NCBI GenBank assembly: GCA_032622095.1
Contig: CP136062.1
Coordinates: 33,666,918-33,730,917, forward strand
From: Siphonodentalium dalli
Taxonomy: Eukaryota > Mollusca > Scaphopoda > Gadilida > Siphonodentaliidae
Length of the DNA stretch: 64,000 bases
Reading direction: 5' to 3'
The notes under the pieces were generated by a model that saw only the letters and a list, made by a program, of their open reading frames with translations, did not search any database and was not told the origin of the DNA. Numbering within the stretch: the stretch's first letter is position 1; each line of letters opens with the position of its first letter. This document shows positions 1 to 64,000 of this stretch, piece by piece. The translations under genes and the position numbers were made by a program.

Positions 1-1150
1 GACACTGATGTTGGTTAATTTACTAGCCTGGGTTGATGGAGTTGTGTGATGACTATGAGGTTCGTTAATTTACTAGCCTGGATTGATGGAGTTGTGTGAT
101 GACTATCAGGTTCGTTAATTTACTAGCCTGGGTTGATGGAGTTGTGTGATGACTATGATGTTGGTTAATTTACTAGCCTGGGTTGATGAAGTTGTGTTAT
201 GACTATGAGGTTGGTTAATTTACTAGCCTGGGTTGATTGAGTTGTGTGATGACTATGAGGTTCGTTAATTTACTAGCCTGGGTTGATGGAGTTGTGTTAT
301 GACTATGAGGTTCGTTAATTTACTAGCCTGGGTTGATGGAGTTGAGTGATGACTATGAGTTTGGTTAATTTACTAGCCTGGGTTGATGTAGTTGTGTGAT
401 GACTATGAGGTTGGTTCATTTACTAGCCTGGGTTGATGGAGTTGTGTGATGACTATGAGTTTGGTTAATTTACTAGCCTGGGTTGATGGAGTTGTGTTAT
501 GACTATGATGTTCGTTAATTTACTAGCCTGTGTTGATGGAGTTGTGTGATGACTATGAGGTTGGTTAATTTACTAGCCTGTGTTGATGGAGTTGTGTGAT
601 GACTATGAGGTTGGTTAATTTACTAGCCTGGGTTGATGGAGTTGTGTTATGACTATGAGGTTGGTTAATTTACTAGTCTGGGTTGATGGAGTTGTGTGAT
701 GACTATGATGTTGGTTAATTTACTAGCCTGTGTTGATGAAGTTGTGTTATGACTATGAGGTTGGTTAATTTACTAGCCTGGGTTGATTGAGTTGTGTGAT
801 GACTATGAGGTTCGTTAATTTACTAGCCTGGGTTGATGGAGTTGTGTTATGACTATGAGGTTCGTAAATTTACTAGCCTGGGTTGATGGAGTTGTGTGAT
901 GACTATGAGTTTGGTTAATTTACTAGCCTGGGTTGATGTAGTTGTGTGATGACTATGAGGTTGGTTCATTTACTAGCCTGGGTTGATGGAGTTGTGTGAT
1001 GACTATGAGTTTGGTTAATTTACTAGCCTGGGTTGATGGAGTTGTGTGATGACCATGAGGTTGGTTAATTTACTAGCCTGGGTTGATGGAGTTGTGTGAT
1101 GACTATGATGTTGGTTAATTTACTAGCCTGGGTTGGTGGAGTTGTGTGAT
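1..1150. repeat. Left-edge satellite segment, partial superunit
   Basis: Twenty-three 50-bp monomers with no length variants. Bases 1-200 match 1251-1450 nearly base for base, including the rare opening GACACTGATG, which is also seen at 1251 and 5252. The rest does not follow the neighbouring superunit and contains its own local duplication (see 151-1050). It is probably the truncated or rearranged end of a further superunit to the left of the window. Confidence 0.8.
151..1050. repeat. Local 550-bp-offset duplication (11 monomers)
   Basis: Monomers at 151-500 recur in the same order at 701-1050. Shared private features include the T38 monomer (GATTGA) at 201 and 751, the GATGTA monomer at 351 and 901, and the rare TTGGTTCATT at 411 and 961. 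The copies differ at a few bases, for example CTGTGTTG versus CTGGGTTG at about 731, TTCGTAAATT at about 861 and GTTGAGTGAT at about 341. The offset is exactly 11 monomers, as expected from an in-register exchange. Confidence 0.85.
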
Positions 1151-4100
1151 GACTATGAGGTTCGTTAAATTACTAGCCTGGATTGATGGAGTTGTGTGAT
1201 GACTATGAGGTTCGTTAATTTAATAGCCTGGGTTGATGGAGTTGTTTGATGACACTGATGTTGGTTAATTTACTAGCCTGGGTTGATGGAGTTGTGTGAT
1301 GACTATGAGGTTCGTTAATTTACTAGCCTGGATTGATGGAGTTGTATGATGACTATGAGGTTCGTTAATTTACTAGCCTGGGTTGATGGAGTTGTGTGAT
1401 GACTATGATGTTGGTTAATTTACTAGCCTGGGTTGATGAAGTTGTGTGATGGCTATGAGGTTGGTTAATTTACTAACCTGGGTTGATGGAGTTGTGTAAT
1501 GACTATGAGGTTGGTTAATATTCTAGCCTGGGTTGATGGAGTTGTGTGATGACTATGAGGTTGGTTAATTTACTAGTCTGGATTGATGGAGTTGTGTGAT
1601 GACTATGAGGTTGGTTAATTTACTATCCTGGGTTGATGGAGTTGTGTTATGACTATGATTGTGGTTAATTTACTAGCCTGGGTTGATGGAGTTGTGTGAT
1701 GACTATGAGGTTGGTTAATTTACTAGCCTGGGTTGATGGAGTTGTGTTATGACTATGAGGTTGGTTAATTTACTAGTCTGGGTTGATGGAGTTGTGTGTT
1801 GACTATGATTGTGGTTAATTTACTAGCCTGGGTTGATGGAGTTGTGTGATGACTATGAGGTTGGTTAATTTACTAGCCTGGGTTGATGTAGTTGTGTTAT
1901 GACTATGAGGTTGGTTAATTTACTAGCCTGGGTTGATGGAGTTGTGTAATGACTATGAGGTTCGTTAATTTACTAGCCTGGGTTGATGGAGTTGTGTGAT
2001 GACTATGAGGTTGGTTAATTTACTAGCCTGGGTTGATGGAGTTGTGTGATGACTATGAGGTTGGTTAATTTACTAGCCTGGGTTGATGGAGTTGTGTTAT
2101 GACTATGAGGTTGGTTAATTTACTAGCCTGGGTTGATGGAGTTGTGTGATGACTATGAGTTTGGTTAGTTTACTAGCCTGGGTTGATGAAGTTGTGTGAT
2201 GACTATGAGGTTCGTTAATTTACTAGCCTGGGTTGATGGAGTTGTGTTATGACTATGAGGTTCGTTAATTTACTAACCTGGGTTGATGGAGTTGTGTGAT
2301 GACTATGAGGTTCGTTAATTTACTAGCCTGGGTTGATGGAGTTGTGTTATGAATATGATTGTGGTTAATTTACTAGCCTGGGTTGATGGAGTTGTGTGAT
2401 GACTATGAGGTTGGTTAATTTACTAGCCTGGGTTGATGGAGTTGTGTGATGACTATGAGGTTCGTTAATTTACTAGCCTGGGTTGATGAAGTTGTGTGAT
2501 GACTATGAGGTTCGTTAATTTACTAGCCTGGGTTGATGGAGTTGTGTTATGACTATGAGGATCGTTAATTTACTAGCCTGGGTTGATGAAGTTGTGTTAT
2601 GAATATGAGGTTGGTTAATTTACTAGCCTGGGTTGATGGAGTTGTGTGATGACTATGAGGTTGGTTAATTTACTAGCCTGGGTTGATGGAGTTGTGTTAT
2701 GACTATGAGGTTGGTTAATTTACTAGCCTGGGTTGATGGAGTTGTGTTATGACTATGAGGTTCGTTAATTTACTAGCCTGGGTTGATGGAGTTGTGTGAT
2801 GACTATGAGGTTGGTTAATTTACTAGCCTGGGTTGATGGAGATGTGTGATGACCATGAGGTTGGTTAATTTACTAGCCTGTGTTGATGGAGTTGTGTGAT
2901 GACTATGATGTTGGTTAATTTACTAGCCTGGGTTGATGGAGTTGTGTGATGACTATGAGGTTCGTTAATTTACTAGCCTGGATTGATGGAGTTGTGTAAT
3001 GACTATGATGTTCGTTAATTTACTAGCCTGGGTTGATGGAGTTGTTTGATGACTATGATGTTCGTTAATTTACTAGCCTGGATTGATGGAGTTGTGTGAT
3101 GACTATGAGGTTCGTTAATTTACTAGCCTGGGTTGATGGAGTTGTGTTATGACTATGAGGTTGGTTAATTTACTAGCCTGGATTGATTGAGTTGTGTGAT
3201 GACTATGAGGTTCGTTAATTTACTAGCCTGGGTTGATGGAGTTGTGTTATGACTATGAGGTTCGTTAATTTACTAGCCTGGGTTGATGGAGTTGTGTGAT
3301 GACTATGCGTTTGGTTAATTTACTAGCCTGGCTTGATTGAGTTGTGTGATGACTATGAGGTTGGTTAATTTACTAGCCTGGGTTGATGGAGTTGTGTGAT
3401 GACTATGAGTTTGGTTAATTTACTAGCCTGGGTTGATGGAGTTGTGTTATGACTATAATGTTCGTTAATTTACTAACCTGTGTTGATGGAGTTGTGTGAT
3501 GACTATGAGGTTGTTTAATTTACTAGCCTGGGTTGATGTAGTTGTGTGATGACTATGAGGTTGGTTAATTTACTAGCCTGGGTTGATGGAGTTGTGTGAT
3601 GACTATGAGGTTGGTTAATTTACTAGCCTGGGTTGATGGACTTGTGTGATGACTATGAGGTTGGTTAATTTACTAGCCTGGATTGATGGAGTTGTGTGAT
3701 GACTATGATTGTGGTTATTTTACTAGCCTGGGTTGATGGAGTTGTGTGATGACTATGAGGTTGGTTAATTTACTAGCCTGGATTGAAGGAGTTGTGTTAT
3801 GACTATGAGGTTGGTTAATTTACTATCCTGGGTTGATGGAGTTGTGTTATGACTATGAGGTTGGTTAATTTACTAGTCTGGGTTGATGGAGTTGTGTGAT
3901 GACTATGAGGTTGGTTAATTTACTAGCCTGGGTTGATGGAGTTGTGTAATGACTATGAGGTTGGTTAATATACTAGCCTGGGTTGATGGAGTTGTGTGAT
4001 GACTATGATGTTGGTTAATTTACTAGTCTGGATTGATGGAGTTGTGTGATGACTATGAGGTTGGTTAATTTACTATCCTGGGTTGATGGAGTTGTGTTAT

Positions 4101-5151
4101 GACTATGATTGTGGTTAATTTACTAGCCTGGGTTGATGGAGTTGTGTGATGACTATGAGGTTGGTTAATTTACTAGCCTGGGTTGATGGAGTTGTGTGAT
4201 GACTATGAGGTTGGTTAATTTACTATCCTGGGTTGATGGAGTTGTGTTATGACTATGATTGTGGTTAATTTACTAGCCTGGGTTGATGGAGTTGTGTGAT
4301 GACTATGAGGTTGGTTAATTTACTAGCCTGGGTTGATGGAGTTGTGTTATGACTATGAGGTTGGTTAATTTACTAGTCTGGGTTGATGGAGTTGTGTGTT
4401 GACTCTGATTGTGGTTAATTTACTAGCCTGGGTTAATGGAGTTGTGTGATGACTATGAGGTTGGTTAATTTACTAGCCTGGGTTGATGTAGTTGTGTTAT
4501 GACTATGAGGTTGGTTAATTTACTAGCCTGGGTTGATGGAGTTGAGTAATGACTATGAGGTTCGTTAATTTACTAGCCTGGGTTGATGGAGTTGTGTGAT
4601 GACTATGAGGTTGGTTAATTTACTAGCCTGGGTTGATGGAGTTGTGTGATGACTATGAGGTTGGTTAATTTACTAGCCTGGGTTGATGGAGTTGTGTTAT
4701 GACTATGAGGTTGGTTAATTTACTAGCCTGGGTTGATGGAGTTGTGTGATGACTATGAGTTTGGTTAATTTACTAGCCTGGGTTGATGAAGTTGTGTGAT
4801 GACTATGAGGTTCGTTAATTTACTAGCCTGGGTTGATGGAGTTGAGTTATGACTATGAGGTTCGTTAAATTACTAACCTGGATTGATGGAGATGTGTGAT
4901 GACTATGAGGTTCGTTAATTTACTAGCCTGGGTTGATGGGAGTTGTGTTATGAATATGATTGTGGTTAATTTACTAGCCTGGGTTGATGAAGTTGTGTGA
5001 TGACTATGAGGTTGGTTAATTTACTAGCCTGGGTTGATGGAGTTGTGTTATGACTATGAGGATCGTTAATTTACTAGCCTGGGTTGATGAAGTTGTGTTA
5101 TGAATATGAGGTTGGTTAATTTACTAGCCTGGGTTGATGGAGTTGTGTGAT
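1151..5151. repeat. Higher-order superunit A1 (4,001 bp)
   Basis: Eighty monomers' worth plus 1 bp. It starts at a monomer with TTCGTTAAAT, followed by the rare TTTAATAGCC and then GACACTGATG, and repeats as A2 with an offset of 4,001 and then 3,901. It holds one 51-bp monomer (GATGGGAG at 4935-4942). At about 2,860-2,960 it carries two monomers, including GACCATGAGG, that A2 lacks. Internally it shows an older, weaker periodicity: 1501-1700 resembles 3951-4150 at an offset of 2,450, and the GTGTGTTGAC marker at 1795 recurs at 4395. Confidence 0.88.
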
Positions 5152-8100
5152 GACTATGAGGTTCGTTAAATTACTAGCCTGGATTGATGGAGTTGTGTGA
5201 TGACTATGAGGTTCGTTAATTTAATAGCCTGGGTTGATGGAGTTGTTTGATGACACTGATGTTGGTTAATTTACTAGCCTGGGTTGATGGAGTTGTGTGA
5301 TGACTATGAGGTTCGTTAATTTACTAGCCTGGATTGATGGAGTTGTATGATGACTATGAGGTTCGTTAATTTACTAGCCTGGGTTGATGGAGTTGTGTGA
5401 TGACTATGATGTTGGTTAATTTACTAGCCTGGGTTGATGAAGTTGTGTGATGGCTATGAGGTTGGTTAATTTACTAACCTGGGTTGATGGAGTTGTGTAA
5501 TGACTATGAGGTTGGTTAATATTCTAGCCTGGGTTGATGGAGTTGTGTGATGACTATGAGGTTGGTTAATTTACTAGTCTGGATTGATGGAGTTGTGTGA
5601 TGACTATGAGGTTGGTTAATTTACTATCCTGGGTTGATGGAGTTGTGTTATGACTATGATTGTGGTTAATTTACTAGCCTGGGTTGATGGAGTTGTGTGA
5701 TGACTATGAGGTTGGTTAATTTACTAGCCTGGGTTGATGGAGTTGTGTTATGACTATGAGGTTGGTTAATTTACTAGTCTGGGTTGATGGAGTTGTGTGT
5801 TGACTATGATTGTGGTTAATTTACTAGCCTGGGTTGATGGAGTTGTGTGATGACTATGAGGTTGGTTAATTTACTAGCCTGGGTTGATGTAGTTGTGTTA
5901 TGACTATGAGGTTGGTTAATTTACTAGCCTGGGTTGATGGAGTTGTGTAATGACTATGAGGTTCGTTAATTTACTAGCCTGGGTTGATGGAGTTGTGTGA
6001 TGACTATGAGGTTGGTTAATTTACTAGCCTGGGTTGATGGAGTTGTGTGATGACTATGAGGTTGGTTAATTTACTAGCCTGGGTTGATGGAGTTGTGTTA
6101 TGACTATGAGGTTGGTTAATTTACTAGCCTGGGTTGATGGAGTTGTGTGATGACTATGAGTTTGGTTAGTTTACTAGCCTGGGTTGATGAAGTTGTGTGA
6201 TGACTATGAGGTTCGTTAATTTACTAGCCTGGGTTGATGGAGTTGTGTTATGACTATGAGGTTCGTTAATTTACTAACCTGGGTTGATGGAGTTGTGTGA
6301 TGACTATGAGGTTCGTTAATTTACTAGCCTGGGTTGATGGAGTTGTGTTATGAATATGATTGTGGTTAATTTACTAGCCTGGGTTGATGGAGTTGTGTGA
6401 TGACTATGAGGTTGGTTAATTTACTAGCCTGGGTTGATGGAGTTGTGTGATGACTATGAGGTTCGTTAATTTACTAGCCTGGGTTGATGAAGTTGTGTGA
6501 TGACTATGAGGTTCGTTAATTTACTAGCCTGGGTTGATGGAGTTGTGTTATGACTATGAGGATCGTTAATTTACTAGCCTGGGTTGATGAAGTTGTGTTA
6601 TGAATATGAGGTTGGTTAATTTACTAGCCTGGGTTGATGGAGTTGTGTGATGACTATGAGGTTGGTTAATTTACTAGCCTGGGTTGATGGAGTTGTGTTA
6701 TGACTATGAGGTTGGTTAATTTACTAGCCTGGGTTGATGGAGTTGTGTTATGACTATGAGGTTCGTTAATTTACTAGCCTGGGTTGATGGAGTTGTGTGA
6801 TGACTATGAGGTTGGTTAATTTACTAGCCTGGGTTGATGGAGATGTGTGATGACTATGAGGTTCGTTAATTTACTAGCCTGGATTGATGGAGTTGTGTAA
6901 TGACTATGATGTTCGTTAATTTACTAGCCTGGGTTGATGGAGTTGTTTGATGACTATGATGTTCGTTAATTTACTAGCCTGGATTGATGGAGTTGTGTGA
7001 TGACTATGAGGTTCGTTAATTTACTAGCCTGGGTTGATGGAGTTGTGTTATGACTATGAGGTTGGTTAATTTACTAGCCTGGATTGATTGAGTTGTGTGA
7101 TGACTATGAGGTTCGTTAATTTACTAGCCTGGGTTGATGGAGTTGTGTTATGACTATGAGGTTCGTTAATTTACTAGCCTGGGTTGATGGAGTTGTGTGA
7201 TGACTATGCGTTTGGTTAATTTACTAGCCTGGCTTGATTGAGTTGTGTGATGACTATGAGGTTGGTTAATTTACTAGCCTGGGTTGATGGAGTTGTGTGA
7301 TGACTATGAGTTTGGTTAATTTACTAGCCTGGGTTGATGGAGTTGTGTTATGACTATAATGTTCGTTAATTTACTAACCTGTGTTGATGGAGTTGTGTGA
7401 TGACTATGAGGTTGTTTAATTTACTAGCCTGGGTTGATGTAGTTGTGTGATGACTATGAGGTTGGTTAATTTACTAGCCTGGGTTGATGGAGTTGTGTGA
7501 TGACTATGAGGTTGGTTAATTTACTAGCCTGGGTTGATGGACTTGTGTGATGACTATGAGGTTGGTTAATTTACTAGCCTGGATTGATGGAGTTGTGTGA
7601 TGACTATGATTGTGGTTATTTTACTAGCCTGGGTTGATGGAGTTGTGTGATGACTATGAGGTTGGTTAATTTACTAGCCTGGATTGAAGGAGTTGTGTTA
7701 TGACTATGAGGTTGGTTAATTTACTATCCTGGGTTGATGGAGTTGTGTTATGACTATGAGGTTGGTTAATTTACTAGTCTGGGTTGATGGAGTTGTGTGA
7801 TGACTATGAGGTTGGTTAATTTACTAGCCTGGGTTGATGGAGTTGTGTAATGACTATGAGGTTGGTTAATATACTAGCCTGGGTTGATGGAGTTGTGTGA
7901 TGACTATGATGTTGGTTAATTTACTAGTCTGGATTGATGGAGTTGTGTGATGACTATGAGGTTGGTTAATTTACTATCCTGGGTTGATGGAGTTGTGTTA
8001 TGACTATGATTGTGGTTAATTTACTAGCCTGGGTTGATGGAGTTGTGTGATGACTATGAGGTTGGTTAATTTACTAGCCTGGGTTGATGGAGTTGTGTGA

Positions 8101-9052
8101 TGACTATGAGGTTGGTTAATTTACTATCCTGGGTTGATGGAGTTGTGTTATGACTATGATTGTGGTTAATTTACTAGCCTGGGTTGATGGAGTTGTGTGA
8201 TGACTATGAGGTTGGTTAATTTACTAGCCTGGGTTGATGGAGTTGTGTTATGACTATGAGGTTGGTTAATTTACTAGTCTGGGTTGATGGAGTTGTGTGT
8301 TGACTCTGATTGTGGTTAATTTACTAGCCTGGGTTAATGGAGTTGTGTGATGACTATGAGGTTGGTTAATTTACTAGCCTGGGTTGATGTAGTTGTGTTA
8401 TGACTATGAGGTTGGTTAATTTACTAGCCTGGGTTGATGGAGTTGAGTAATGACTATGAGGTTCGTTAATTTACTAGCCTGGGTTGATGGAGTTGTGTGA
8501 TGACTATGAGGTTGGTTAATTTACTAGCCTGGGTTGATGGAGTTGTGTGATGACTATGAGGTTGGTTAATTTACTAGCCTGGGTTGATGGAGTTGTGTTA
8601 TGACTATGAGGTTGGTTAATTTACTAGCCTGGGTTGATGGAGTTGTGTGATGACTATGAGTTTGGTTAATTTACTAGCCTGGGTTGATGAAGTTGTGTGA
8701 TGACTATGAGGTTCGTTAATTTACTAGCCTGGGTTGATGGAGTTGAGTTATGACTATGAGGTTCGTTAAATTACTAACCTGGATTGATGGAGATGTGTGA
8801 TGACTATGAGGTTCGTTAATTTACTAGCCTGGGTTGATGGGAGTTGTGTTATGAATATGATTGTGGTTAATTTACTAGCCTGGGTTGATGAAGTTGTGTG
8901 ATGACTATGAGGTTGGTTAATTTACTAGCCTGGGTTGATGGAGTTGTGTTATGACTATGAGGATCGTTAATTTACTAGCCTGGGTTGATGAAGTTGTGTT
9001 ATGAATATGAGGTTGGTTAATTTACTAGCCTGGGTTGATGGAGTTGTGTGAT
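5152..9052. repeat. Higher-order superunit A2 (3,901 bp), nearly identical to A1
   Basis: In the stretches compared I found no substitution relative to A1. Shared rare monomers include GTTGTATGAT, GGCTATGAGG, TAATATTCTAG, TTAGTTTACTAG, GACTTGTGTG, GACTCTGATT and GGTTAATGG. The only clear difference is loss of 100 bp at about 6,850, where GATGTGTGATGACTATGAGG runs straight into a TTCGTT monomer. The 51-bp monomer recurs at 8836. The part from about 6.8 to 9.05 kb also aligns with about 13.5-15.8 kb at an offset of 6,667, so A and the middle-domain superunits share one ancestor. Confidence 0.88.
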
Positions 9053-9431
9053 GACTATGAGGTTGGTTAATTTACTAGCGTGGGTTGATGAAGTTGTGTT
9101 ATGACTATGAGGTTGGTTAATTTACTAGCCTGGGTTGATGGAGTTGTGTGATGACTATGAGTTTGGTTAATTTACTAGCCTGGGTTGATGGAGTTGTGTA
9201 ATGACTATGAGTTTGGTTAATTTACTAGCCTGGGTTGATGGAGTTGTGTAATGACTATGAGTTTGGTTAATTTACTAGCCTGGGTTGATGGAGTTGTGTG
9301 ATGACTATGAGGTTGGTTAATTTACTAGCCTGGGTTGATGGAGTTGTGTGATGACTATGAGGTTGGTTAATTTACTAACCTGGGTTGATGGAGTTGTGTA
9401 ATGACTATGAGGTTGGTTAATTTACTAGCCT
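9053..9431. repeat. Lead-in satellite segment before the first 58-bp monomer
   Basis: Regular 50-bp monomers that include TAGCGTGGG (about 9,080), a run with GAGTTTGG and GTGTAAT, and TAACCTGGG at about 9,380. This order matches 15,819-16,198 at an offset of 6,767. The homology of the middle-domain superunit therefore begins here, right after A2, rather than at the marker monomer itself. Confidence 0.78.
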
Positions 9432-10840
9432 GGGTTGATGGGTTGATGGAGTTGTGTGATGACTATGAGGTTGGTTAAATTACTAGCCTGGGTTGATGGA
9501 GTTGTGTGATGACTATGAGGTTCGTTGATTTACTAGCCTGGGTTGATGGAGTTGTGTTATGACTATGAGGTTGGTTAATTTACTAGCCTGGGTTGATGGA
9601 GTTGTGTTATGACTATGAGTTTGGTTAATTTACTAGCCTGGGTTGATGGAGTTGTGCTATGACTATGATGTTCGTTAATTTACTAGCCTGTGTTGATGGA
9701 GTTGTGTGATGACTATGAGGTTGGTTAATTTACTAGCCTGGGTTGATGGAGTTGTGTGATGACTATGAGGTTGGTTAATATACTAGCCTGGGTTGATGGA
9801 GTTGTGTTATGACTATGAGGTTGGTTAATTTACTAGTCTGGGTTGATGGAGTTGTGTGATGACTATGAGGTTGGTTAATTTACTAGTCTGGGTTGATGGA
9901 GTTGTGTGATGACTATGAGGTTGGTTAATTTACTAGCCTGGGTTGATGGAGTTGTGTTATGACTATGAAGTTGGTTAATTTACTAGCCTGGGTTGATGGA
10001 GTTGTGTGATGACTATGAGTTTGGTTAATTTACTAGCCTGGGTTGATGAAGTTGTGTGATGACTATGAGGTTCGTTAATTTACTAGCCTGGGTTGATGGA
10101 GTTGTGTTATGACTATGAGGTTCGTTAATTTACTAACCTGGATTGATGGAGTTGTGTGATGACTATGAGGTTCGTTAATTTACTAGTCTGGGTTGATGGG
10201 AGTTGTGTTATGAATATGATTGTGGTTAATTTACTAGCCTGGGTTGATGGAGTTGTGTGATGACTATGAGGTTGGTTAATTTACTAGCCTGGGTTGATGG
10301 AGTTGTGTGATGACTATGAGGTTCGTTAATTTACTAGCCTGGGTTGATGAAGTTGTGTGATGACTATGAGGTTCGTTAATTTACTAGCCTGGGTTGATGG
10401 AGTTGTGTTATGACTATGAGGATCGTTAATTTACTAGCCTAGGTTGATGAAGTTGTGTTATGAATATGAGGTTGGTTAATTTACTAGCGTGGGTTGACGA
10501 AGTTGTGTTATGACTATGAGGTTGGTTAATTTACTAGCCTGTGTTGATGGAGTTGTGTGATGACTATGAGTTTGGTTAATTTACTAGCCTGGGTTGATGG
10601 AGTTGTGTAATGACTATGCGTTTGGTTAATTTACTAGCCTGGGTTGATGGAGTTGTGTAATGACTATGAGTTTGGTTAATTTACTAGCCTGGGTTGATGG
10701 AGTTGTATGATCACTATGAGGTTGGTTAATTTACTAGCCTGGGTTGATGGAGTTGTGTGATGACTATGAGGTTGGTTAATTTACTAACCTGGGTTGATGG
10801 AGTTGTGTAATGACTATGAGGTTGGTTAATTTACTAGCCT
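9432..10840. repeat. Block M1, 1,409 bp, first 58-bp monomer
   Basis: Opens with GGGTTGATGGGTTGATGG, a monomer lengthened to 58 bp by duplication of GGTTGATG. The next monomer carries TTAAATTACTAG (T19A), a pairing that is nearly universal in the array. The length equals 28x50+8+1, the extra base being the 51-mer at 10198. The same 1,409-bp block recurs at 16199 and 31086. It ends in TAACCTGGG plus GTGTAAT monomers leading to the next 58-mer. Private changes include TTGTGCTAT (about 9,656), CCTAGGTTGA (about 10,439), GTTGACGAAG (about 10,495) and GATCACTATG (about 10,710). Confidence 0.88.
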
Positions 10841-45240: not shown

Positions 45241-45540
45241 TGGTTAATTTACTAGTCTGGGTTGATGGAGTAGTGTGTTGACTATGATTGTGGTTAATTT
45301 ACTATCCTGGGTTGATGGAGTTGTGTGATGACTATGTGGTTGGTTAATTTACTAGCCTGGGTTGATGTAGTTGTGTTATGACTATGAGGTTGGTTAATTT
45401 ACTAGCCTGGGTTGATGGAGTTGTGTAATGACTATGAGGTTCGTTAATTTACTAGCCTGGGTTGATGAAGTTGCGTGATGACTATGAGGTTGGTTAATTT
45501 ACTAGCCTGGGTTGATGGAGTTGTGTGATGACTATGAGGT

Positions 45541-46640: not shown

Positions 46641-46908
46641 TGGTTAATTTACTAGCGTGGGTTGATGAAGTTGTGTTATGACTATGAGGTTGGTTAATTT
46701 ACTAGCCTGTGTTGATGGAGTTGTGTGATGACTATGAGTTTGGTTAATTTACTAGCCTGGGTTGATGGAGTTGTGTGATGACTATGAGGTTGGTTAATTT
46801 ACTAGCCTGGGTTGATGGAGTTGTGTGATGACTATGAGGTTGGTTAATTTACTAACCTGGGTTGATGAAGTTGTGTAATGACTATGAGGTTGGTTAATTT
46901 ACTAGCCT

Positions 46909-51174: not shown

Positions 51175-52532
51175 GGGTTGATGGGTTGATGGAGTTGTGT
51201 GATGACTATGAGGTTGGTTAAATTACTAGCCTGGGTTGATGGAGTTGTGTGATGACTATGAGGTTCGTTAATTTACTAGCCTGGATTGATGGAGTTGTGT
51301 TATGACTATGATTGTGGTTAATTTACTAGCCTGGGTTGAAGGAGTTGTGTGATGACTATGAGTTTGGTTAATTTACTAGCCTGGGTTGATCGAGTTGTGT
51401 TATGACTATGATGTTCGTTAATTTACTAGCCTGTGTTGATGGAGTTGTGTGATGACTATGAGGTTGGTTAATTTACTAGCCTGGGTTGATGGAGTTGTGT
51501 GATGACTATGAGGTTGGTTAATTTACTAGCCTGGGTTGATGGAGTTGTGTTATGACTATGAGGTTGGTTAATTTACTAGTCTGGGTTGATGGAGTTGTGT
51601 GATGACTATGAGGTTGGTTAATTTACTAGCTTGGGTTGATGTAGTTGTGTTATGACTATGAGGTTGGTTAATTTACTAGCCTGGGTTGATGGAGTTGTGT
51701 GGTGACTATGAGGTTGGTTAATTTACTAGCCTGGGTTGATGGAGTTGTGTGATGACTATGAGGTTGGTTAATTTACTAGCCTGGATTGATGGAGTTGTGT
51801 GATGACTATGATTGTGGTTAATTTACTAGCCTGGTTTGATGGAGTTGTGTGATGACTATGAGGTTGGTTAATTTACTAGCCTGGATTGATGGAGTTGTGT
51901 TATGACTATGAGGTTGGTTAATTTACTATCCTGGGTTGATGGAGTTGTGTTATGACTATGAGGTTGGTTAATGTACTAGTCTGGGTTGATGGAGTTGTGT
52001 GATGGCTATGAGGTTGGTTAATTTACTAGCCTGGGTTGATGGAGTTGTGTAATGACTATGAGGTTGGTTAATATTCTAGCCTGGGTTGATGGAGTTGTGT
52101 GATGACTATGAGGTTGGTTAATTTACTAGTCTGGATTGATGGAGTTGTGTGATGACTATGAGGTTGGTTAATTTACTATCCTGGGTTGATGGAGTTGTGT
52201 TATGACTATGATTGTGGTTAATTTACTAGCCTGGGTTGATGGAGTTGTGAGATGACTATGAGGTTGGTTAATTTACTAGCCTGGGTTGATGGAGTTGTGT
52301 TATGACTATGATTGTGGTTAATTAACTAGCCTGGGTTGATGGAGTTGTGTGATGACTATGCGGTTGTTTAATTTACTAGCCTGGGTTGATGGAGTTGTGT
52401 TATGACTATGAGGTTGGTTAATTTACTAGCCTGGGTTGATGGAGTTGTGTGATGACTATGAGGTTGGTTAATTTACTAACCTGGGTTGATGAAGTTGTGT
52501 AATGACTATGAGGTTGGTTAATTTACTAGCCT
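51175..52532. repeat. P block, 1,358 bp (subtype P1, second copy)
   Basis: Copy of 46909-48266 at an offset of 4,266. Differences noticed are GTGTGGTGAC (51,698), CTGGTTTGAT (51,831), TTAATTAACTAG (52,319) and TATGCGGTTG (52,357). All four are absent from the other P copies, so they arose after this duplication. Confidence 0.9.
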
Positions 52533-55090
52533 GGGTTGATGGGTTGATGGAGTTGTGTGATGACTATGAGGTTGGTTAAATTACTAGCCTGGGTTGATGG
52601 AGTTGTGTGATGACTATGAGGTTCGTTAATTTACTAGCCTGGATTGATGGAGTTGTGTTATGACTATGATTGTGGTTAATTTACTAGCCTGGGTTGATGG
52701 AGTTGTGTGATGACTATGAGTTTGGTTAATTTACTAGCCTGGGTTGATGGAGTTGTGTTATGACTATGATGTTCGTTAATTTACTAGCCTGTGTTGATGG
52801 AGTTGTGTGATGACTATGATGTTGGTTAATTTACTAGCCTGCGTTGATGGAGTTGTGTGATGACTATGATGTTGGTTAATTTACTAGCCTGGGTTGATGG
52901 AGTTGTGTTATGACTATGAGGTTGGTTAATTTACTAGTCTGGGTTGATGGAGTTGTGTGATGACTATGAGGTTGGTTAATTTACTAGCCTGGGTTGATGT
53001 AGTTGTGTTATGACTATGAGGTTGGTTAATTTACTAGCATGGGTTGATGGAGTTGTGTGATGACTATGAGGTTGGTTAATTTACTAGCCTGGGTTGATGG
53101 AGTTGTGTGATGACTATGAGGTTGGTTAATTTACTAGCCTGGATTGATGGAGTTGTGTTATGACTATGAGGTTGGTTAATTTACTATCCTGGGTTGATGG
53201 AGTTGTGTTATGACTATGAGGTTGGTTAATTTACTAGTCTGGGTTGAAGGAGTTGTGTGATGACTATGAGGTTGGTTAATTTACTAGCCTGGGTTGATGG
53301 AGTTGTGTAATGACTATGAGGTTGGTTAATATACTAGCCTGGGTTGATGGAGTTGTGTGATGACTATGAGGTTGGTTAATTTACTAGTCTGGATTGATGG
53401 AGTTGTGTGATGACGATGAGGTTGGTTAATTTACTATCCTGGGTTGATGGAGTTGTGTGATGACTATGTGGTTGGTTAATTTACTAGCCTGGGTTGATGT
53501 AGTTGTGTTATGACTATGAGGTTGGTTAATTTACTAGCCTGGGTTGATGGAGTTGTGTAATGACTATGAGGTTCGTTAATTTACTAGCCTGGGTTGATGG
53601 AGTTGTGTGATGACTATGAGGTTGGTTAATTTACTAGCCTGGGTTGATGGAGTTGTGTGATGACTATGAGGTTGGTTAATTTACTAGCCTGGGTTGATGG
53701 AGTTGTGTTATGACTATGAGGTTGGTTAATTTACTAGCCTGGGTTGATGGAGTTGTGTGATGACTAAGAGTTTGGTTAATTTACTAGCCTGGGTTGATGA
53801 AGTTGTGTGATGACTATGAGGTTCGTTAATTTACTAGCCTGGGTTGATGGAGTTGTGTTATGACTATGAGGTTCGTTAATTTACTAACCTGGGTTGATGG
53901 AGTTGTGTGATGACTATGAGGTTCGTTAATTTACTAGCCTGGGTTGATGGAGTTGTGTTATGAATATGATTGTGGTTAATTTACTAGCCTGGGTTGATGG
54001 AGTTGTGTGATGACTATGGTGTTGGTTAATTTACTAGCCTGGGTTGATGGAGTTGTGTGATGACTATGAGGTTCGTTAATTTACTAGCCTGTGTTGATGG
54101 AGTTGTGTTATGACGATGAGGATCGTTAATTTACTAGCCTGGGTTGATGGAGTTGTGTTATGACTATCAGGTTGGTTAATTTACTAGCCTGGGTTGATGG
54201 AGTTGTGTTATGACTATGAGGTTGGTTAATTTACTAGCCTGGGTTGATGGAGTTGTGTGATGACTAAGAGTTTGGTTAATTTACTAGCCTGGGTTGATGA
54301 AGTTGTGTGATGACTATGAGGTTCGTTAATTTACTAGCCTGTGTTGATGGAGTTGTGTTATGACTATGAGGTTCGTTAATTTACTAACCTGGGTTGATGG
54401 AGTTGTGTGATGACTATGAGGTTCGTTAATTTACTAGCCTGGGTTGATGGAGTTGTGCTATGAATATGATTGTGGTTAATTTACTAGCCTGGGTTGATGG
54501 AGTTGTGTGATGACTATGGTGTTGGTTAATTTACTAGCCTGGGTTGATAGAGTTGTGTGATGACTATGAGGTTCGTTAATTTACTAGCCTGGGTTGATGG
54601 AGTTGTGTTATGACTATGAGGATCGTTAATTTACTAGCCTGGGTTGATGAAGTTGTGTTATGAATATGAGGTTGGTTAATTTACTAGCCTGGGTTGATGG
54701 AGTTGTGTTATGACTATGAGGTTGGTTAATTTACTAGCGTGGGTTGATGAAGTTGTGTTATGACTATGAGGTTGGTTAATTTACTAGCCTGTGTTGATGG
54801 AGTTGTGTGATGACTATGAGTTTGGTTAATTTACTAGCCTGGGTTGATGGAGTTGTGTAATGACTATGAGTTTGGTTAATTTACTAGCCTGGGTTGATGG
54901 AGTTGTGTAATGACTATGACTATGGTTAATTTACTAGCCTGGGTTGATGGAGTTGTGTGATGACTATGAGGTTGGTTAATTTGCTAGCCTGGGTTGATGG
55001 AGTTGTGTGATGACTATAAGGTTGGTTAATTTACTAACCTGGGTTGATGAAGTTGTGTAATGACTATGAGGTTGGTTAATTTACTAGCCT
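52533..55090. repeat. Q block, 2,558 bp (shortened copy)
   Basis: Starts as 48267 does. Against that copy it lacks 100 bp at about 53,145 (including the CTGTATTG monomer), 300 bp at about 53,450 (including GGAGTAGTG) and 50 bp at about 54,135. It has gained 100 bp at about 54,850-54,950, which accounts for the 350-bp shortfall. The gained part includes a unique GACTATGACTATGG monomer (54,911). Near its end are TTTGCTAGCC (54,981) and GACTATAAGG (55,013). Confidence 0.88.
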
Positions 55091-55348
55091 GGGTTGATGG
55101 GTTGATGGAGTTGTGTGATGACTATGAGGTTGGTTAAATTACTAGCCTGGGTTGATGGAGTTGTGTGATGACTATGAGGTTCGTTAATTTACTAGCCTGG
55201 ATTGATGGAGTTGTGTTATGACTATGATTGTGGTTAATTTACTAGCCTGGGTTGATGGAGTTGTGTTATGACTATGAGGTTGGTTAATTTACTAACCTGG
55301 GTAGATGAAGTTGTGTAATGACTATGAGGTTGGTTAATGTACAAGCCT
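55091..55348. repeat. Residual 258-bp block
   Basis: Five monomers plus 8 bp between two marker monomers. It keeps the opening of a P or Q block (58-mer, T19A, TTCGTT, GATTGTGG) and jumps to a degenerate ending with CTGGGTAGATG (55,297) and TAATGTACAAGCC (55,336). It looks like a block that lost its interior in register. Confidence 0.82.
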
Positions 55349-56315
55349 GGGTTGATGGGTTGATGGGTTGATGGAGTTGTGTGATGACTATGAGGTTGGA
55401 TAAATTTACTAGCCTGGGTTGATGGAGTTGTGTTATGACTATGATTGTGGTTAATTTACTAGCCTGGGTTGATGGAGTTGTGTGATGACTATGAGGTTGG
55501 TTAATTTACTAGCCTGGGTTGATGGAGTTGTGTGATGACTAAGAGTTTGGTTAATTTACTAGCCTGGGTTGATGAAGTTGTGTGATGACTATGAGGTTCG
55601 TTAATTTACTAGCCTGGGTTGATGGATTTGTGTTATGAATATGATTGTGGTTAATTTACTAGCCTGGGTTGATGGAGTTGTGTGATGACTATGAGGTTGG
55701 TTAATTTACTAGCCTGGGTTGATGGAGTTGTGTGATGACTATGAGGTTCGTTAATTTACTAGCCTGGGTTGATGAAGTTGTGTTATGAATATGATTGTGG
55801 TTAATTTACTAGCCTGGGTTGATGGAGTTGTGTTATGACTATGGGGATCGTTAATTTACTAGCCTGGGTTGATGAAGTTGTGTTATGAATATGAGGTTGG
55901 TTAATTTACTAGCCTGGGTTGATGGAGTATTGTGATGACTATGAGGTTGGTTAATTTACTAGCGTGGGTTGATGAAGTTGTGTTATGACTATGAGGTTGG
56001 TTAATTTACTAGCATGTGTTGATGGAGTTGTGTGATGACTATGAGTTTGGTTAATTTACTAGCCTGGCTTGATGGAGTTGTGTAATGACTATGAGTTTGG
56101 TTAATTTACTAGCCTGGGTTGATGGAGTTGTGTAATGACTATGAGTTTGGTTAATTTACTAGCCTGGGTTGATGGAGTTGTGTGATGACTATGAGGTTGG
56201 TTAATTTACTAGCCTGGGTTGATGGAGTTGTGTGATGACTATGAGGTTGGTTAATTTACTAACCTGGGTTGATGAAGTTGTGTAATGACTATGAGGTTGG
56301 TTAATTTACTAGCCT
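55349..56315. repeat. Block with a 66-bp triple-marker monomer, 967 bp
   Basis: Opens with three consecutive GGTTGATG units where other marker monomers have two, making a 66-bp monomer (55,349-55,374). The next monomer is 51 bp, with TTGGATAAATTTAC replacing the usual T19A form. The total is 19x50+16+1. The rest copies the R1/R3b ending (GACTAAGAGT, GGATTTGTG, GGAGTATTGTG, TAGCATGTG), with a private GACTATGGGGATCG at about 55,841. Confidence 0.88.
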
Positions 56316-57673
56316 GGGTTGATGGGTTGATGGAGTTGTGTGATGACTATGAGGTTGGTTAAATTACTAGCCTGGGTTGATGGAGTTGTGTGATGACTAT
56401 GAGGTTCGTTAATTTACTAGCCTGGATTGATGGAGTTGTGTTATGACTATGATTGTGGTTAATTTACTAGCCTGGGTTGAAGGAGTTGTGTGATGACTAT
56501 GAGTTTGGTTAATTTACTAGCCTGGGTTGATCGAGTTGTGTTATGACTATGATGTTCGTTAATTTACTAGCCTGTGTTGATGGAGTTGTGTGATGACTAT
56601 GAGGTTGGTTAATTTACTAGCCTGGGTTGATGGAGTTGTGTGATGACTATGAGGTTGGTTAATTTACTAGCCTGGGTTGATGGAGTTGTGTTATGACTAT
56701 GAGGTTGGTTAATTTACTAGTCTGGGTTGATGGAGTTGTGTGATGACTATGAGGTTGGTTAATTTACTAGCTTGGGTTGATGTAGTTGTGTTATGACTAT
56801 GAGGTTGGTTAATTTACTAGCCTGGGTTGATGGAGTTGTGAGATGACTATGAGGTTGGTTAATTTACTAGCCTGGGTTGATGGAGTTGTGTGATGACTAT
56901 GAGGTTGGTTAATTTACTAGCCTGGATTGATGGAGTTGTGTAATGACTATGATTGTGGTTAATTTACTAGCCTGGGTTGATGGAGTTGTGTGATGACTAT
57001 GAGGTTGATTAATTTACTAGCCTGGATTGATGGAGTTGTGTTATGACTATGAGGTTGGTTAATTTACTATCCTGGGTTGATGGAGTTGTGTTATGACTAT
57101 GAGGTTGGATAATGTACTAGTCTGGGTTGATGGAGTTGTGTGATGGCTATGAGGTTGGTTAATTTACTAGCCTGTGTTGATGGAGTTGTGTAATGACTAT
57201 GAGGTTGGTTAATATTCTAGCCTGGGTTGATGGAGTTGTGTGATGACTATGAGGTTGGTTAATTTACTAGTCTGGATTGATGGAGTTGTGTGATGACTAT
57301 GAGGTTGGTTAATTTACTATCCTGGGTTGATGGAGTTGTGTTATGACTATGATTGTGGTTAATTTACTAGCCTGGGTTGATGGAGTTGTGTGATGACTAT
57401 GAGGTTGGTTAATTTACTAGCCTGGGTTGATGGAGTTGTGTTATGACTATGATTGTGGTTAATTTACTAGCCTGGGTTGATGGAGTTGTGTGATGACTAT
57501 GAGGTTGTTTAATTTACTAGCCTGGGTTGATGGAGTTGTGTTATGACTATGAGGTTGGTTAATTTACTAGCCTGGGTTGATGGAGTTGTGTGATGACTAT
57601 GAGGTTGGTTAATTTACTAACCTGGGTTGATGAAGTTGTGTAATGACTATGAGGTTGGTTAATTTACTAGCCT
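56316..57673. repeat. P block, 1,358 bp (subtype P2, first copy)
   Basis: Same skeleton as P1, but with GTGAGATG placed earlier (56,839), TTGATTAATT (57,005), TTGGATAATGTAC (57,106) and CTGTGTTG after GATGGCTATG. These define subtype P2, shared with 58882 and 60240. A private GTGTAATGACTATGATTG occurs at 56,938. Confidence 0.9.
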
Positions 57674-58881
57674 GGGTTGATGGGTTGATGGAGTTGTGTG
57701 ATGACTATGAGGTTGGTTAAATTACTAGCCTGGGTTGATGGAGTTGTGTGATGACTATGAGGTTCGTTAATTTACTAGCCTGGATTGATGGAGTTGTGTT
57801 ATGACTATGATTGTGGTTAATTTACTAGCCTGGGTTGAAGGAGTTGTGTGATGACTATGAGTTTGGTTAATTTACTAGCCTGGGTTGATCGAGTTGTGTT
57901 ATGACTATGATGTTCGTTAATTTACTAGCCTGTGTTGATGGAGTTGTGTGATGACTATGAGGTTGGTTAATTTACTAGCCTGGGTTGATGGAGTTGTGTT
58001 ATGACTATGATTGTGGTTAATTTACTAGCCTGGGTTGATGGAGTTGTGTGATGACTATGAGGTTGGTTAATTTACTAGCCTGGGTTGATGGAGTTGTGTG
58101 ATGACTAAGAGTTTGGTTAATTTACTAGCCTGGGTTGATGAAGTTGTGTGATGACTATGAGGTTCGTTAATTTACTAGCCTGGGTTGATGGATTTGTGTT
58201 ATGAATATGATTGTGGTTAATTTACTAGCCTGGGTTGATGGAGTTGTGTGATGACTATGAGGTTGGTTAATTTACTAGCCTGGGTTGATGGAGTTGTGTG
58301 ATGACTATGAGGTTCGTTAATTTACTAGCCTGGGTTGATGAAGTTGTGTTATGAATATGATTGTGGTTAATTTACTAGCCTGGGTTGATGGAGTTGTGTT
58401 ATGACTATGAGGATCGTTAATTTACTAGCCTGGGTTGATGAAGTTGTGTTATGAATATGAGGTTGGTTAATTTACTAGCCTGGGTTGATGGAGTATTGTG
58501 ATGACTATGAGGTTGGTTAATTTACTAGCGTGGGTTGATGAAGTTGTGTTATGACTATGAGGTTGGTTAATTTACTAGCATGTGTTGATGGAGTTGTGTG
58601 ATGACTATGAGTTTGGTTAATTTACTAGCCTGGCTTGATGGAGTTGTGTAATGACTATGAGTTTGGTTAATTTACTAGCCTGGGTTGATGGAGTTGTGTA
58701 ATGACTATGAGTTTGGTTAATTTACTAGCCTGGGTTGATGGAGTTGTGTGATGACTATGAGGTTGGTTAATTTACTAGCCTGGGTTGATGGAGTTGTGTG
58801 ATGACTATGAGGTTGGTTAATTTACTAACCTGGGTTGATGAAGTTGTGTAATGACTATGAGGTTGGTTAATTTACTAGCCT
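57674..58881. repeat. Chimeric block, 1,208 bp: P start joined to the 55.4-kb block
   Basis: The first 310 bp or so is P (TTGAAGGAG, GATCGAG). At about 57,985 it switches to sequence matching 55,419-56,315 at an offset of 2,566, with GACTAAGAGT, GGATTTGTG, GGAGTATTGTG (58,490) and TAGCATGTG. The switch lies in a shared GTTATGACTATGATTGTGG monomer, so the exact crossover base cannot be placed. Length is 24x50+8. Confidence 0.88.
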
Positions 58882-60239
58882 GGGTTGATGGGTTGATGGA
58901 GTTGTGTGATGACTATGAGGTTGGTTAAATTACTAGCCTGGGTTGATGGAGTTGTGTGATGACTATGAGGTTCGTTAATTTACTAGCCTGGATTGATGGA
59001 GTTGTGTTATGACTATGATTGTGGTTAATTTACTAGCCTGGGTTGAAGGAGTTGTGTGATGACTATGAGTTTGGTTAATTTACTAGCCTGGGTTGATCGA
59101 GTTGTGTTATGACTATGATGTTCGTTAATTTACTAGCCTGTGTTGATGGAGTTGTGTGATGACTATGAGGTTGGTTAATTTACTAGCCTGGGTTGATGGA
59201 GTTGTGTGATGACTATGAGGTTGGTTAATTTACTAGCCTGGGTTGATGGAGTTGTGTTATGACTATGAGGTTGGTTAATTTACTAGTCTGGGTTGATGGA
59301 GTTGTGTGATGACTATGAGGTTGGTTAATTTACTAGCTTGGGTTGATGTAGTTGTGTTATGACTATGAGGTTGGTTAATTTACTAGCCTGGGTTGATGGA
59401 GTTGTGAGATGACTATGAGGTTGGTTAATTTACTAGCCTGGGTTGATGGAGTTGTGTGATGACTATGAGGTTGGTTAATTTACTAGCCTGGATTGATGGA
59501 GTTGTGTGATGACTATGATTGTGGTTAATTTACTAGCCTGGGTTGATGGAGTTGTGTGATGACTATGAGGTTGATTAATTTACTAGCCTGGATTGATGGA
59601 GTTGTGTTATGACTATGAGGTTGGTTAATTTACTATCCTGGGTTGATGGAGTTGTGTTATGACTATGAGGTTGGATAATGTACTAGTCTGGGTTGATGGA
59701 GTTGTGTGATGGCTATGAGGTTGGTTAATTTACTAGCCTGTGTTGATGGAGTTGTGTAATGACTATGAGGTTGGTTAATATTCTAGCCTGGGTTGATGGA
59801 GTTGTGTGATGACTATGAGGTTGGTTAATTTACTAGTCTGGATTGATGGAGTTGTGTGATGACTATGAGGTTGGTTAATTTACTATCCTGGGTTGATGGA
59901 GTTGTGTTATGACTATGATTGTGGTTAATTTACTAGCCTGGGTTGATGGAGTTGTGTGATGACTATGAGGTTGGTTAATTTACTAGCCTGGGTTGATGGA
60001 GTTGTGTTATGACTATGATTGTGGTTAATTTACTAGCCTGGGTTGATGGAGTTGTGTGATGACTATGAGGTTGTTTAATTTACTAGCCTGGGTTGATGGA
60101 GTTGTGTTATGACTATGAGGTTGGTTAATTTACTAGCCTGGGTTGATGGAGTTGTGTGATGACTATGAGGTTGGTTAATTTACTAACCTGGGTTGATGAA
60201 GTTGTGTAATGACTATGAGGTTGGTTAATTTACTAGCCT
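58882..60239. repeat. P block, 1,358 bp (subtype P2, second copy)
   Basis: Matches 56316-57673 at an offset of 2,566, with GTGTGATGACTATGATTG at 59,504 where the earlier copy has GTGTAAT. It is followed directly by another P2 copy, making the one place in the window where complete P blocks sit in tandem. Confidence 0.91.
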
Positions 60240-61597
60240 GGGTTGATGGGTTGATGGAGTTGTGTGATGACTATGAGGTTGGTTAAATTACTAGCCTGGG
60301 TTGATGGAGTTGTGTGATGACTATGAGGTTCGTTAATTTACTAGCCTGGATTGATGGAGTTGTGTTATGACTATGATTGTGGTTAATTTACTAGCCTGGG
60401 TTGAAGGAGTTGTGTGATGACTATGAGTTTGGTTAATTTACTAGCCTGGGTTGATCGAGTTGTGTTATGACTATGATGTTCGTTAATTTACTAGCCTGTG
60501 TTGATGGAGTTGTGTGATGACTATGAGGTTGGTTAATTTACTAGCCTGGGTTGATGGAGTTGTGTGATGACTATGAGGTTGGTTAATTTACTAGCCTGGG
60601 TTGATGGAGTTGTGTTATGACTATGAGGTTGGTTAATTTACTAGTCTGGGTTGATGGAGTTGTGTGATGACTATGAGGTTGGTTAATTTACTAGCTTGGG
60701 TTGATGTAGTTGTGTTATGACTATGAGGTTGGTTAATTTACTAGCCTGGGTTGATGGAGTTGTGAGATGACTATGAGGTTGGTTAATTTACTAGCCTGGG
60801 TTGATGGAGTTGTGTGATGACTATGAGGTTGGTTAATTTACTAGCCTGGATTGATGGAGTTGTGTGATGACTATGATTGTGGTTAATTTACTAGCCTGGG
60901 TTGATGGAGTTGTGTGATGACTATGAGGTTGATTAATTTACTAGCCTGGATTGATGGAGTTGTGTTATGACTATGAGGTTGGTTAATTTACTATCCTGGG
61001 TTGATGGAGTTGTGTTATGACTATGAGGTTGGATAATGTACTAGTCTGGGTTGATGGAGTTGTGTGATGGCTATGAGGTTGGTTAATTTACTAGCCTGTG
61101 TTGATGGAGTTGTGTAATGACTATGAGGTTGGTTAATATTCTAGCCTGGGTTGATGGAGTTGTGTGATGACTATGAGGTTGGTTAATTTACTAGTCTGGA
61201 TTGATGGAGTTGTGTGATGACTATGAGGTTGGTTAATTTACTATCCTGGGTTGATGGAGTTGTGTTATGACTATGATTGTGGTTAATTTACTAGCCTGGG
61301 TTGATGGAGTTGTGTGATGACTATGAGGTTGGTTAATTTACTAGCCTGGGTTGATGGAGTTGTGTTATGACTATGATTGTGGTTAATTTACTAGCCTGGG
61401 TTGATGGAGTTGTGTGATGACTATGAGGTTGTTTAATTTACTAGCCTGGGTTGGTGGAGTTGTGTTATGACTATGAGGTTGGTTAATTTACTAGCCTGGG
61501 TTGATGGAGTTGTGTGATGACTATGAGGTTGGTTAATTTACTAACCTGGGTTGATGAAGTTGTGTAATGACTATGAGGTTGGTTAATTTACTAGCCT
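60240..61597. repeat. P block, 1,358 bp (subtype P2, third copy)
   Basis: Tandem copy of 58882-60239 at an offset of 1,358. The only difference noticed is GTTGGTGGAG at 61,451 in place of GTTGATGGAG. Confidence 0.91.
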
Positions 61598-64000
61598 GGG
61601 TTGATGGGTTGATGGAGTTGTGTGATGACTATGAGGTTGGTTAAATTACTAGCCTGGGTTGATGGAGTTGTGTGATGACTATGAGGTTCGTTAATTTACT
61701 AGCCTGGATTGATGGAGTTGTGTTATGACTATGATTGTGGTTAATTTACTAGCCTGGGTTGATGGAGTTGTGTGATGACTATGAGTTTGGTTAATTTACT
61801 AGCCTGGGTTGATGGAGTTGTGTTATGACTATGATGTTCGTTAATTTACTAGCCTGTGTTGATGGAGTTGTGTGATGACTATGATGTTGGTTAATTTACT
61901 AGCCTGCGTTGATGGAGTTGTGTGATGACTATGATGTTGGTTAATTTACTAGCCTGGGTTGATGGAGTTGTGTTATGACTATGAGGTTGGTTAATTTACT
62001 AGTCTGGGTTGATGGAGTTGTGTGATGACTATGAGGTTGGTTAATTTACTAGCCTGGGTTGATGTAGTTGTGTTATGACTATGAGGTTGGTTAATTTACT
62101 AGCATGGGTTGATGGAGTTGTGTGATGACTATGCGGTTGGTTAATTTACTAGCCTGGGTTGATGGAGTTGTGTGATGACTATGAGGTTGGTTAATTTACT
62201 GGCCTGTATTGATGGAGTTGTGTGATGACTATGATTGTGGTTAATTTACTAGCCTGGGTTGATGGAGTTGTGTGATGACTATGAGGTTGGTTAATTTACT
62301 AGCCTAGATTGATGGAGTTGTGTTATGACTATGAGGTTGGTTAATTTACTATCCTGGGTTGATGGAGTTGTGTTATGACTATGAGGTTGGTTAATTTACT
62401 AGTCTGGGTTGAAGGAGTTGTGTGATGACTATGAGGTTGGTTAATTTACTAGCCTGGGTTGATGGAGTTGTGTAATGACTATGAGGTTGGTTAATATACT
62501 AGCCTGGGTTGATGGAGTTGTGTGATGACTATGAGGTTGGTTAATTTACTAGTCTGGATTGATGGAGTTGTGTGATGACGATGAGGTTGGTTAATTTACT
62601 ATCCTGGGTTGATGGAGTTGTGTTATGACTATGATTGTGGTTAATTTACTAGCCTGGGTTGATGGAGTTGTGTGATGACTATGAGGTTGGTTAATTTACT
62701 ATCCTGGGTTGATGGAGTTGTGTTATGACTATGATTGTGGTTAATTTACTAGCCTGGGTTGATGGAGTTGTGTGATGACTATGAGGTTGGTTAATTTACT
62801 AGCCTGGGTTGATGGAGTTGTGTTATGACTATGAGGTTGGTTAATTTACTAGTCTGGGTTGATGGAGTAGTGTGTTGACTATGATTGTGGTTAATTTACT
62901 ATCCTGGGTTGATGGAGTTGTGTGATGACTATGTGGTTGGTTAATTTACTAGCCTGGGTTGATGTAGTTGTGTTATGACTATGAGGTTGGTTAATTTACT
63001 AACCTGGGTTGATGGAGTTGTGTAATGACTATGAGGTTCGTTAATTTACTAGCCTGGGTTGATGGAGTTGTGTGATGACTATGAGGTTGGTTAATTTACT
63101 AGCCTGGGTTGATGGAGTTGTGTGATGACTATGAGGTTGGTTAATTTACTAGCCTGGGTTGATGGAGTTGTGTTATGACTATGAGGTTGGTTAATTTACT
63201 AGCCTGGGTTGATGGAGTTGTGTGATGACTAAGAGTTTGGTTAATTTACTAGCCTGGGTTGATGAAGTTGTGTGATGACTATGAGGTTCGTTTAATTTAC
63301 TAGCCTGGGTTGATGGAGTTGTGTTATGACTATGAGGTTCGTTAATTTACTAACCTGGGTTGATGGAGTTGTGTGATGACTATGAGGTTCGTTAATTTAC
63401 TAGCCTGGGTTGATGGAGTTGTGTTATGAATATGATTGTGGTTAATTTACTAGCCTGGGTTGATGGAGTTGTGTGATGACTATGGTGTTGGTTAATTTAC
63501 TAGCCTGGGTTGATGGAGTTGTGTGATGACTATGTGGTTCGTTAATTTACTAGCCTGGGTTGATGGAGTTGTGTTATGACGATGAGGATCGTTAATTTAC
63601 TAGCCTGGGTTGATGGAGTTGTGTTATGACTATCAGGTTGGTTAATTTACTAGCCTGGGTTGATGGAGTTGTGTTATGACTATGAGGTTGGTTAATTTAC
63701 TAGCCTGGGTTGATGGAGTTGTGTGATGACTAAGAGTTTGGTTAATTTACTAGCCTGGGTTGATGAAGTTGTGTGATGACTATGAGGTTCGTTAATTTAC
63801 TAGCCTGTGTTGATGGAGTTGTGTTATGACTATGAGGTTCGTTAATTTACTAACCTGGGTTGATGGAGTTGTGTGATGACTATGAGGTTCGTTAATTTAC
63901 TAGCCTGGGTTGATGGAGTTGTGCTATGAATATGATTGTGGTTAATTTACTAGCCTGGGTTGATGGAGTTGTGTGATGACTATGGTGTTGGTTAATTTAC
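61598..64000. repeat. Q block, cut by the window end (2,403 bp present)
   Basis: Third Q copy, with CTGCGTTG (61,902), TAGCATGGG, CTGTATTG, GACGATGAGG, GGAGTAGTG, TATGTGGTTGG and the paired GACTAAGAGT segments 501 bp apart. As in the 52533 copy, the 50-bp GATGAAG/GAATATGAGG monomer between them is missing. Private changes are TATGCGGTTGG (62,132), TACTGGCC (62,198), CCTAGATTG (62,305), TAACCTGGG (63,000), an extra T at about 63,291 and TATGTGGTTCG (63,532). Confidence 0.88.
63286..63302. other. 51-bp monomer from an extra T
   Basis: TTCGTTTAATTTAC has one T more than the usual TTCGTTAATTTAC. No other copy of this Q monomer has it, so it is a private insertion or a homopolymer sequencing error. 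Confidence 0.85.

Follow-up and report, generated by a model that had tools for sequence, protein, structure and literature searches.

Organization of the 50-bp Array

The window, that is, the whole 64,000-base stretch of DNA analyzed here, consists from its first to its last position of a head-to-tail array of one 50-bp unit, as determined by wrap-around alignment (Table 1). In this alignment, 1,275 units plus 23 bases account for all 64,000 bases. The 63,772 aligned bases and one deletion make up 63,773 consensus positions (1,275 x 50 + 23), and the inserted bases total 228, composed of 25 insertions of 8 bases and one of 16 bases of TGGGTTGA, ten additional Gs, one A and one C; the extra TGGGTTGA eights therefore number 27 (25 single, one double). 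An earlier, sequence-only reading had proposed this register of 1,275 monomers and 23 bases, with 27 eight-base duplications, ten +G, two +1 and one -1 changes, and the alignment reproduced it exactly, with the same counts. It had also named a monomer-by-monomer parse leaving unaligned sequence as the outcome that would speak against it, and all 64,000 bases were fitted. The Tandem Repeats Finder run proposed as a further check returned a 50-bp period along nearly all of the window, in one row over 6-55,362 (1,103.8 copies, 92% matches, 0% indels) and another over 55,364-64,000 (171.9 copies, 91% matches). The other rows mostly describe a weak 22-bp sub-period within the 50-bp array, and single rows of 8, 117 and 150 bp were reported at 55.2-56.2 kb. 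Moreover, the self-identity of the window peaks at a 50-base shift, reaching 0.911 as compared to approximately 0.30 predicted from base composition alone, and declines slowly at multiples of 50.

Individual copies stay close to the consensus. Full monomers (n = 1,275) differ from it at 0-6 of 50 positions, with 173, 278, 412, 269, 103, 36 and 4 monomers showing 0, 1, 2, 3, 4, 5 and 6 substitutions, respectively. As every full monomer falls within this range, a foreign insert is absent from the window, in agreement with what had been claimed for it. When insertions are counted as differences, 208 distinct monomers are found among 1,276. At monomer column 3 (columns are counted from 0 throughout), C replaces G in 244 of the 1,276 monomers, which generates a CpG (TTCGTT) that is not in the consensus. 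One strand is G+T-rich throughout (T 25,272, G 20,117, A 13,368 and C 5,243), with a GC skew of 0.56-0.61 in 16 of 16 4-kb bins, and this uniform bias implies that the monomers all point in the same direction.

Table 1. Features of the array in the 64-kb window (window coordinates).
Feature	Coordinates	Strand	Details
50-bp satellite array	1..64000	+	Consensus GTTGGTTAATTTACTAGCCTGGGTTGATGGAGTTGTGTGATGACTATGAG; every copy in the same orientation
Extra TGGGTTGA, 26 places	First 9431..9438; next starts 10840, 16198, 17607, 23666, 26775, 31085, 32494	+	
Extra TGGGTTGA, further starts	35252, 36560, 38068, 39376, 40684, 41492, 43650, 46908, 48266	+	
Extra TGGGTTGA, remaining starts	51174, 52532, 55090, 55348, 56315, 57673, 58881, 60239, 61597	+	
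Double insertion of TGGGTTGA	55348..55363	+	Two extra copies (three in a row); the only one
+G insertions, ten	4938, 8839, 10198, 15506, 17115, 22974, 24583, 27692, 30393, 32002	+	
+A insertion	55400..55400	+	
+C insertion	63289..63289	+	
1-base deletion	12471..12471	+	The only one
Tandem duplication, lag 3,109 bp	23127..29830	+	23127-26721 vs 26236-29830, 99.3%
Three successive related ~7.4-kb blocks	12471..35170	+	12471-17608 vs 19939-25076, 99.4%
~7.4-kb blocks, second pair	12471..35170	+	20274-25076 vs 27693-32495, 99.3%
~7.4-kb blocks, third pair	12471..35170	+	12806-20283 vs 27693-35170, 97.5%
Duplication, lag 3,901 bp	1683..9421	+	1683-5520 vs 5584-9421, 97.6%
Duplication, lag 4,266 bp	44262..54363	+	44262-50097 vs 48528-54363, 97.6%
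Duplication, lag 2,566 bp	55403..60876	+	55403-58310 vs 57969-60876, 99.2%
27-monomer tandem unit, lag 1,358 bp	58584..62868	+	58584-61510 vs 59942-62868, 98.8%

Coding Content and Class of DNA

No open reading frame of at least 60 amino acids (table 11), tRNA or tmRNA, Rfam match at gathering score or four-run G motif was detected in the 64-kb window. Telomere units are TTAGGG or TTTAGGG, and their 0 occurrences on both strands of the window rule out telomeric DNA. The CENP-B box (NTTCGNNNNANNCGGGN) is absent from the window at 0-1 mismatches, which rules out a CENP-B-box centromeric satellite; at 2 mismatches it has 6 matches, as compared to 26.35 expected. None of three 100-base pieces tested for strand folding did better than most of its shuffled versions (z of 1.30, 1.30 and -0.26).

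Pattern scans of viral contig and genome contig collections (non-eukaryotic) returned no match, nor did BLAST with one 1-kb piece each against phages and plasmids (distant) and E. coli genomes (near). A prokaryotic, phage or plasmid origin was rejected on the absence of matches in those collections and of open reading frames; to our knowledge, no pure array of 64 kb occurs in such genomes. Altogether, the window is almost certainly non-coding satellite DNA of a eukaryotic chromosome. Any role of the array would be structural, as bulk subtelomeric or pericentromeric heterochromatin, or it may have none.

Higher-Order Block Architecture

We then focused our attention on how the monomers are arranged relative to each other, a level of organization that the sequence-only reading did not mention and that proved to be the most informative one. 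Blocks on the kilobase scale, of 27 to approximately 150 monomers and at lags of 1.36 to 7.5 kb, have been duplicated with the 50-bp register kept, at identities of up to 100%. Ungapped self-match pairs in the window number 127 when each had to score at least 400 and to contain 300 or more consecutive identical bases at its lag. Fourteen ungapped pairs are 800 bp or longer with an identity of at least 98.5%. Among pairs reaching 1 kb, the six with an identity of at least 99% cover 45% of the window, and the 54 with at least 97% cover 92%. The longest exact repeat in the window, of 3,128 bp, lies within the duplication of lag 3,109 bp. The duplications are nested: a unit of approximately 27 monomers (1,358 bp) is visible from the 8-bp markers, successive ones of which lie 26-30 monomers apart in 12 of 25 cases, and larger blocks repeat at lags of 51, 62, 78, 82, 85, 86, 148 and 149 monomers. 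No single regular higher-order period spans the window.

The same organization is observed when monomers are compared pairwise. Those located 27, 85 and 149 monomers apart differ on average at 3.18, 3.15 and 3.12 positions, respectively, and true neighbors differ at 3.57 positions as compared to 3.454 in shuffled order (sd 0.026, 300 shuffles); as the shuffles ignore block structure, this sd is too small, and only the direction of the difference is used. Multi-monomer blocks are thus more alike than adjacent monomers, which is the hallmark of higher-order structure. A fainter similarity was observed at lags of 550 and 700 bp, corresponding to 11 monomers (3.26 differences) and 14 monomers (3.31 differences), as compared to 3.454 in shuffled order; several pairs of 2-4.6 kb show about 94-95% identity there. 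It may be a trace left by a shorter higher-order unit that existed earlier.

Probable Origin and Spread of the Indel Markers

The sequence context of the indels is highly uniform. All 26 monomers carrying the 8-bp insertion follow a left neighbor of the same type, with A at columns 16 and 38, and in 25 of the 26 the right neighbor starts with GTTGGTTAAATT. Since carriers have this neighborhood in common, the 8-bp duplication probably arose once and was then spread by block copying. Two TGG triplets placed 8 bp apart appear to flank the duplication, as slippage would produce, and the insertion appears to have been generated by slippage between them before the copying of blocks spread it. Likewise, nine of the ten +G carriers are of the same monomer type and the tenth has a single change, with the surrounding context also in common.

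The 26th 8-bp carrier, starting at 55,329, stands out in having the 8-mer three times, as well as extra private changes, and the monomer beside it looks like a hybrid of two neighboring monomers. Private changes cluster from 55,303 to 55,401. They comprise two T>A changes (55,303 and 55,343) separated by a T>G, the third TGGGTTGA, and the +A with an adjacent T>A. This cluster is possibly the scar of an error-prone break repair. Considering substitutions only, with indels outside the test, 593 of 2,000 random placements attained the density of 3 rare substitutions per 300 bp seen at 55.30-55.40 kb, which is not significant.

Mode of Array Growth

The intervals between successive monomer starts (n = 1,275) are of 50 bp in 1,236 cases, 58 bp in 25, 51 bp in 12, and 49 and 66 bp in one case each, from which it follows that the 50-bp phase is never lost. 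In addition, no truncated monomers were found at block borders. Growth monomer by monomer was rejected, as neighbors are no more alike than monomers in shuffled order, a comparison of which, again, only the direction was used. We infer instead that the array has grown by in-register homologous copying of blocks; copying guided by monomer homology would best explain both the kept phase and the intact monomers at the borders. Blocks may have been made when sister chromatids or homologues exchanged homologous DNA out of phase, and break-induced replication, or rolling-circle copying followed by re-insertion of the circles, could represent alternative sources. Every one of these routes would be guided by monomer homology, so that the register would be kept.

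The architecture could also have been created by the assembler, in the sense that the array is real and its length or its block duplications are not. Near-perfect duplications of several kilobases, such as the exact repeat mentioned above, are indeed where assemblers err. However, block divergence is graded, from about 94 to 100%, the markers are nested and mutually consistent, and very few indels occur as singletons (+A, +C and -1), which makes such an artefact very improbable. A more far-reaching proposal can be put forward tentatively: that the family is in no database, that it is homogenized almost only by in-register copying of blocks of 27 to ~150 monomers, or 1.36 to 7.5 kb, with single-monomer turnover playing hardly any part, and that its rare indels are single-origin tags tracing each duplication. 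Taken as a whole, we consider this proposal rather unlikely.

Overall, few parts of genomes are read as little as satellite arrays, and the one described here is a clean, ungapped record of growth, in which indel tags trace duplication of kilobase blocks with the register kept, and not monomer slippage. The kind of sequence is ordinary, and the record of block-wise growth is its most useful part. Existing knowledge of satellites is unchanged by it, and it could help, as a model array, in measuring duplication sizes.

Recent Substitutions and Methylation-Type Decay

Substitutions private to one monomer were evaluated at three settings. At the strict one, 844 of the 1,268 examined monomers had at least two near-identical contexts, and 40 private substitutions were identified, 16 transitions and 24 transversions, numbers that are small and in which a change copied into two blocks may count twice. 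C>T/G>A changes were observed at 0 of 1,655 CHG opportunities and 10 of 14,558 CHH opportunities. The loosest setting gave 1 of 1,961 and 14 of 17,104, respectively, with 25 transitions vs 31 transversions, and transversions exceeded transitions at all three settings. Among the private changes, T>A was also more frequent than T>C (7 to 2, 10 to 1 and 10 to 2 at the three settings). Moreover, the consensus CTG (CHG) site at columns 18 and 20 is well preserved, with C in 1,241 of 1,276 monomers at column 18 and G in at least 98% at column 20. Decay driven by CHG methylation therefore left no sign among the private recent changes or at the consensus CTG site. As CHG-site decay together with an excess of transitions could be anticipated in the heterochromatin of a plant, this pattern is mildly against a plant origin, given the small numbers.

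Identity of the Satellite Family

The sequence-only reading did not recognize the monomer and considered an undescribed family; non-recognition, however, is no evidence of novelty, and at least two repeats already described share the 50-bp period. In our assessment, the window most probably represents PisTR-B of pea or a close relative of it among legumes, a reading to which we give somewhat better than even chances and which is grounded on background knowledge and prior expectation, and not on a match of bases. PisTR-B is reportedly abundant and built from a 50-bp unit, and the monomer of the window agrees with that length. As pea has a very large genome in which PisTR-B is plentiful, a random window made entirely of satellite is likelier to come from it than from trypanosome expression sites. 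According to PMC6304655, PisTR-B (GenBank AF300830.1) is mostly subtelomeric, and also pericentromeric on pea chromosomes 3, 4 and 5. Searches of literature text with pieces of the consensus returned no paper naming PisTR-B, in a search that variants or another spacing would escape, and no match that was a satellite paper by its title, in one that papers with a lone piece, variant monomers or another spacing would escape. These results, together with the absence of matches in the searched collections, are also in line with a satellite family, perhaps undescribed, from a different eukaryote. Such a family would share the same block-copying mechanism under another name, and the weak CHG signal, which is not plant-like, points in this direction too. 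Nevertheless, the absent match says little, as the searched collections hold no eukaryotic genomes, and we regard this second possibility as a serious one that falls short of even chances.

Far less probable is that the window corresponds to the 50-bp repeat upstream of the VSG expression sites of Trypanosoma brucei, a non-transcribed repeat proposed as a boundary. A lack of 5-methylcytosine-type decay would need no explanation there; however, the trypanosome genome is small, which makes an array window unlikely a priori. PMC3486875, PMC11739655 and PMC9352583 describe this repeat as forming large non-transcribed arrays of imperfect copies upstream of all known expression sites and of their promoters, with a proposed boundary function. 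The period of 50 bp is the same in both, and imperfect copies in large non-transcribed arrays are a further parallel with these descriptions, but the likeness in sequence terms is limited to the period, and consensus pieces were found in no trypanosome repeat paper in the literature text search, which lone pieces, variants or another spacing would escape. The centromere arrays of T. brucei are built on other periods, of which 49 bp comes closest (Table 1 of PMC11666725). PisTR-B or a close legume relative remains the name that we prefer.

Comparison with Known Repeat Systems

The resemblance to PisTR-B lies in a tandem, non-coding array with a 50-bp monomer (the length of PisTR-B being the reported one), and the resemblance to the repeats of T. 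brucei VSG expression sites lies in the 50-bp period and the imperfect copies; in both cases, the likeness is one of description. The window differs from the latter in that no expression-site promoter, gene or flank is located within its 64 kb. Regarding higher-order organization, primate alpha satellite has a 171-bp monomer, and its monomers are diverged within a block while the blocks are nearly identical. The array described here differs from it in its shorter monomer (50 bp vs 171 bp), in having no dominant higher-order period, and in having no CENP-B box at 0-1 mismatches. Nevertheless, it resembles alpha satellite in that a multi-monomer unit, of approximately 27 monomers, has been copied in register into blocks that are nearly identical.
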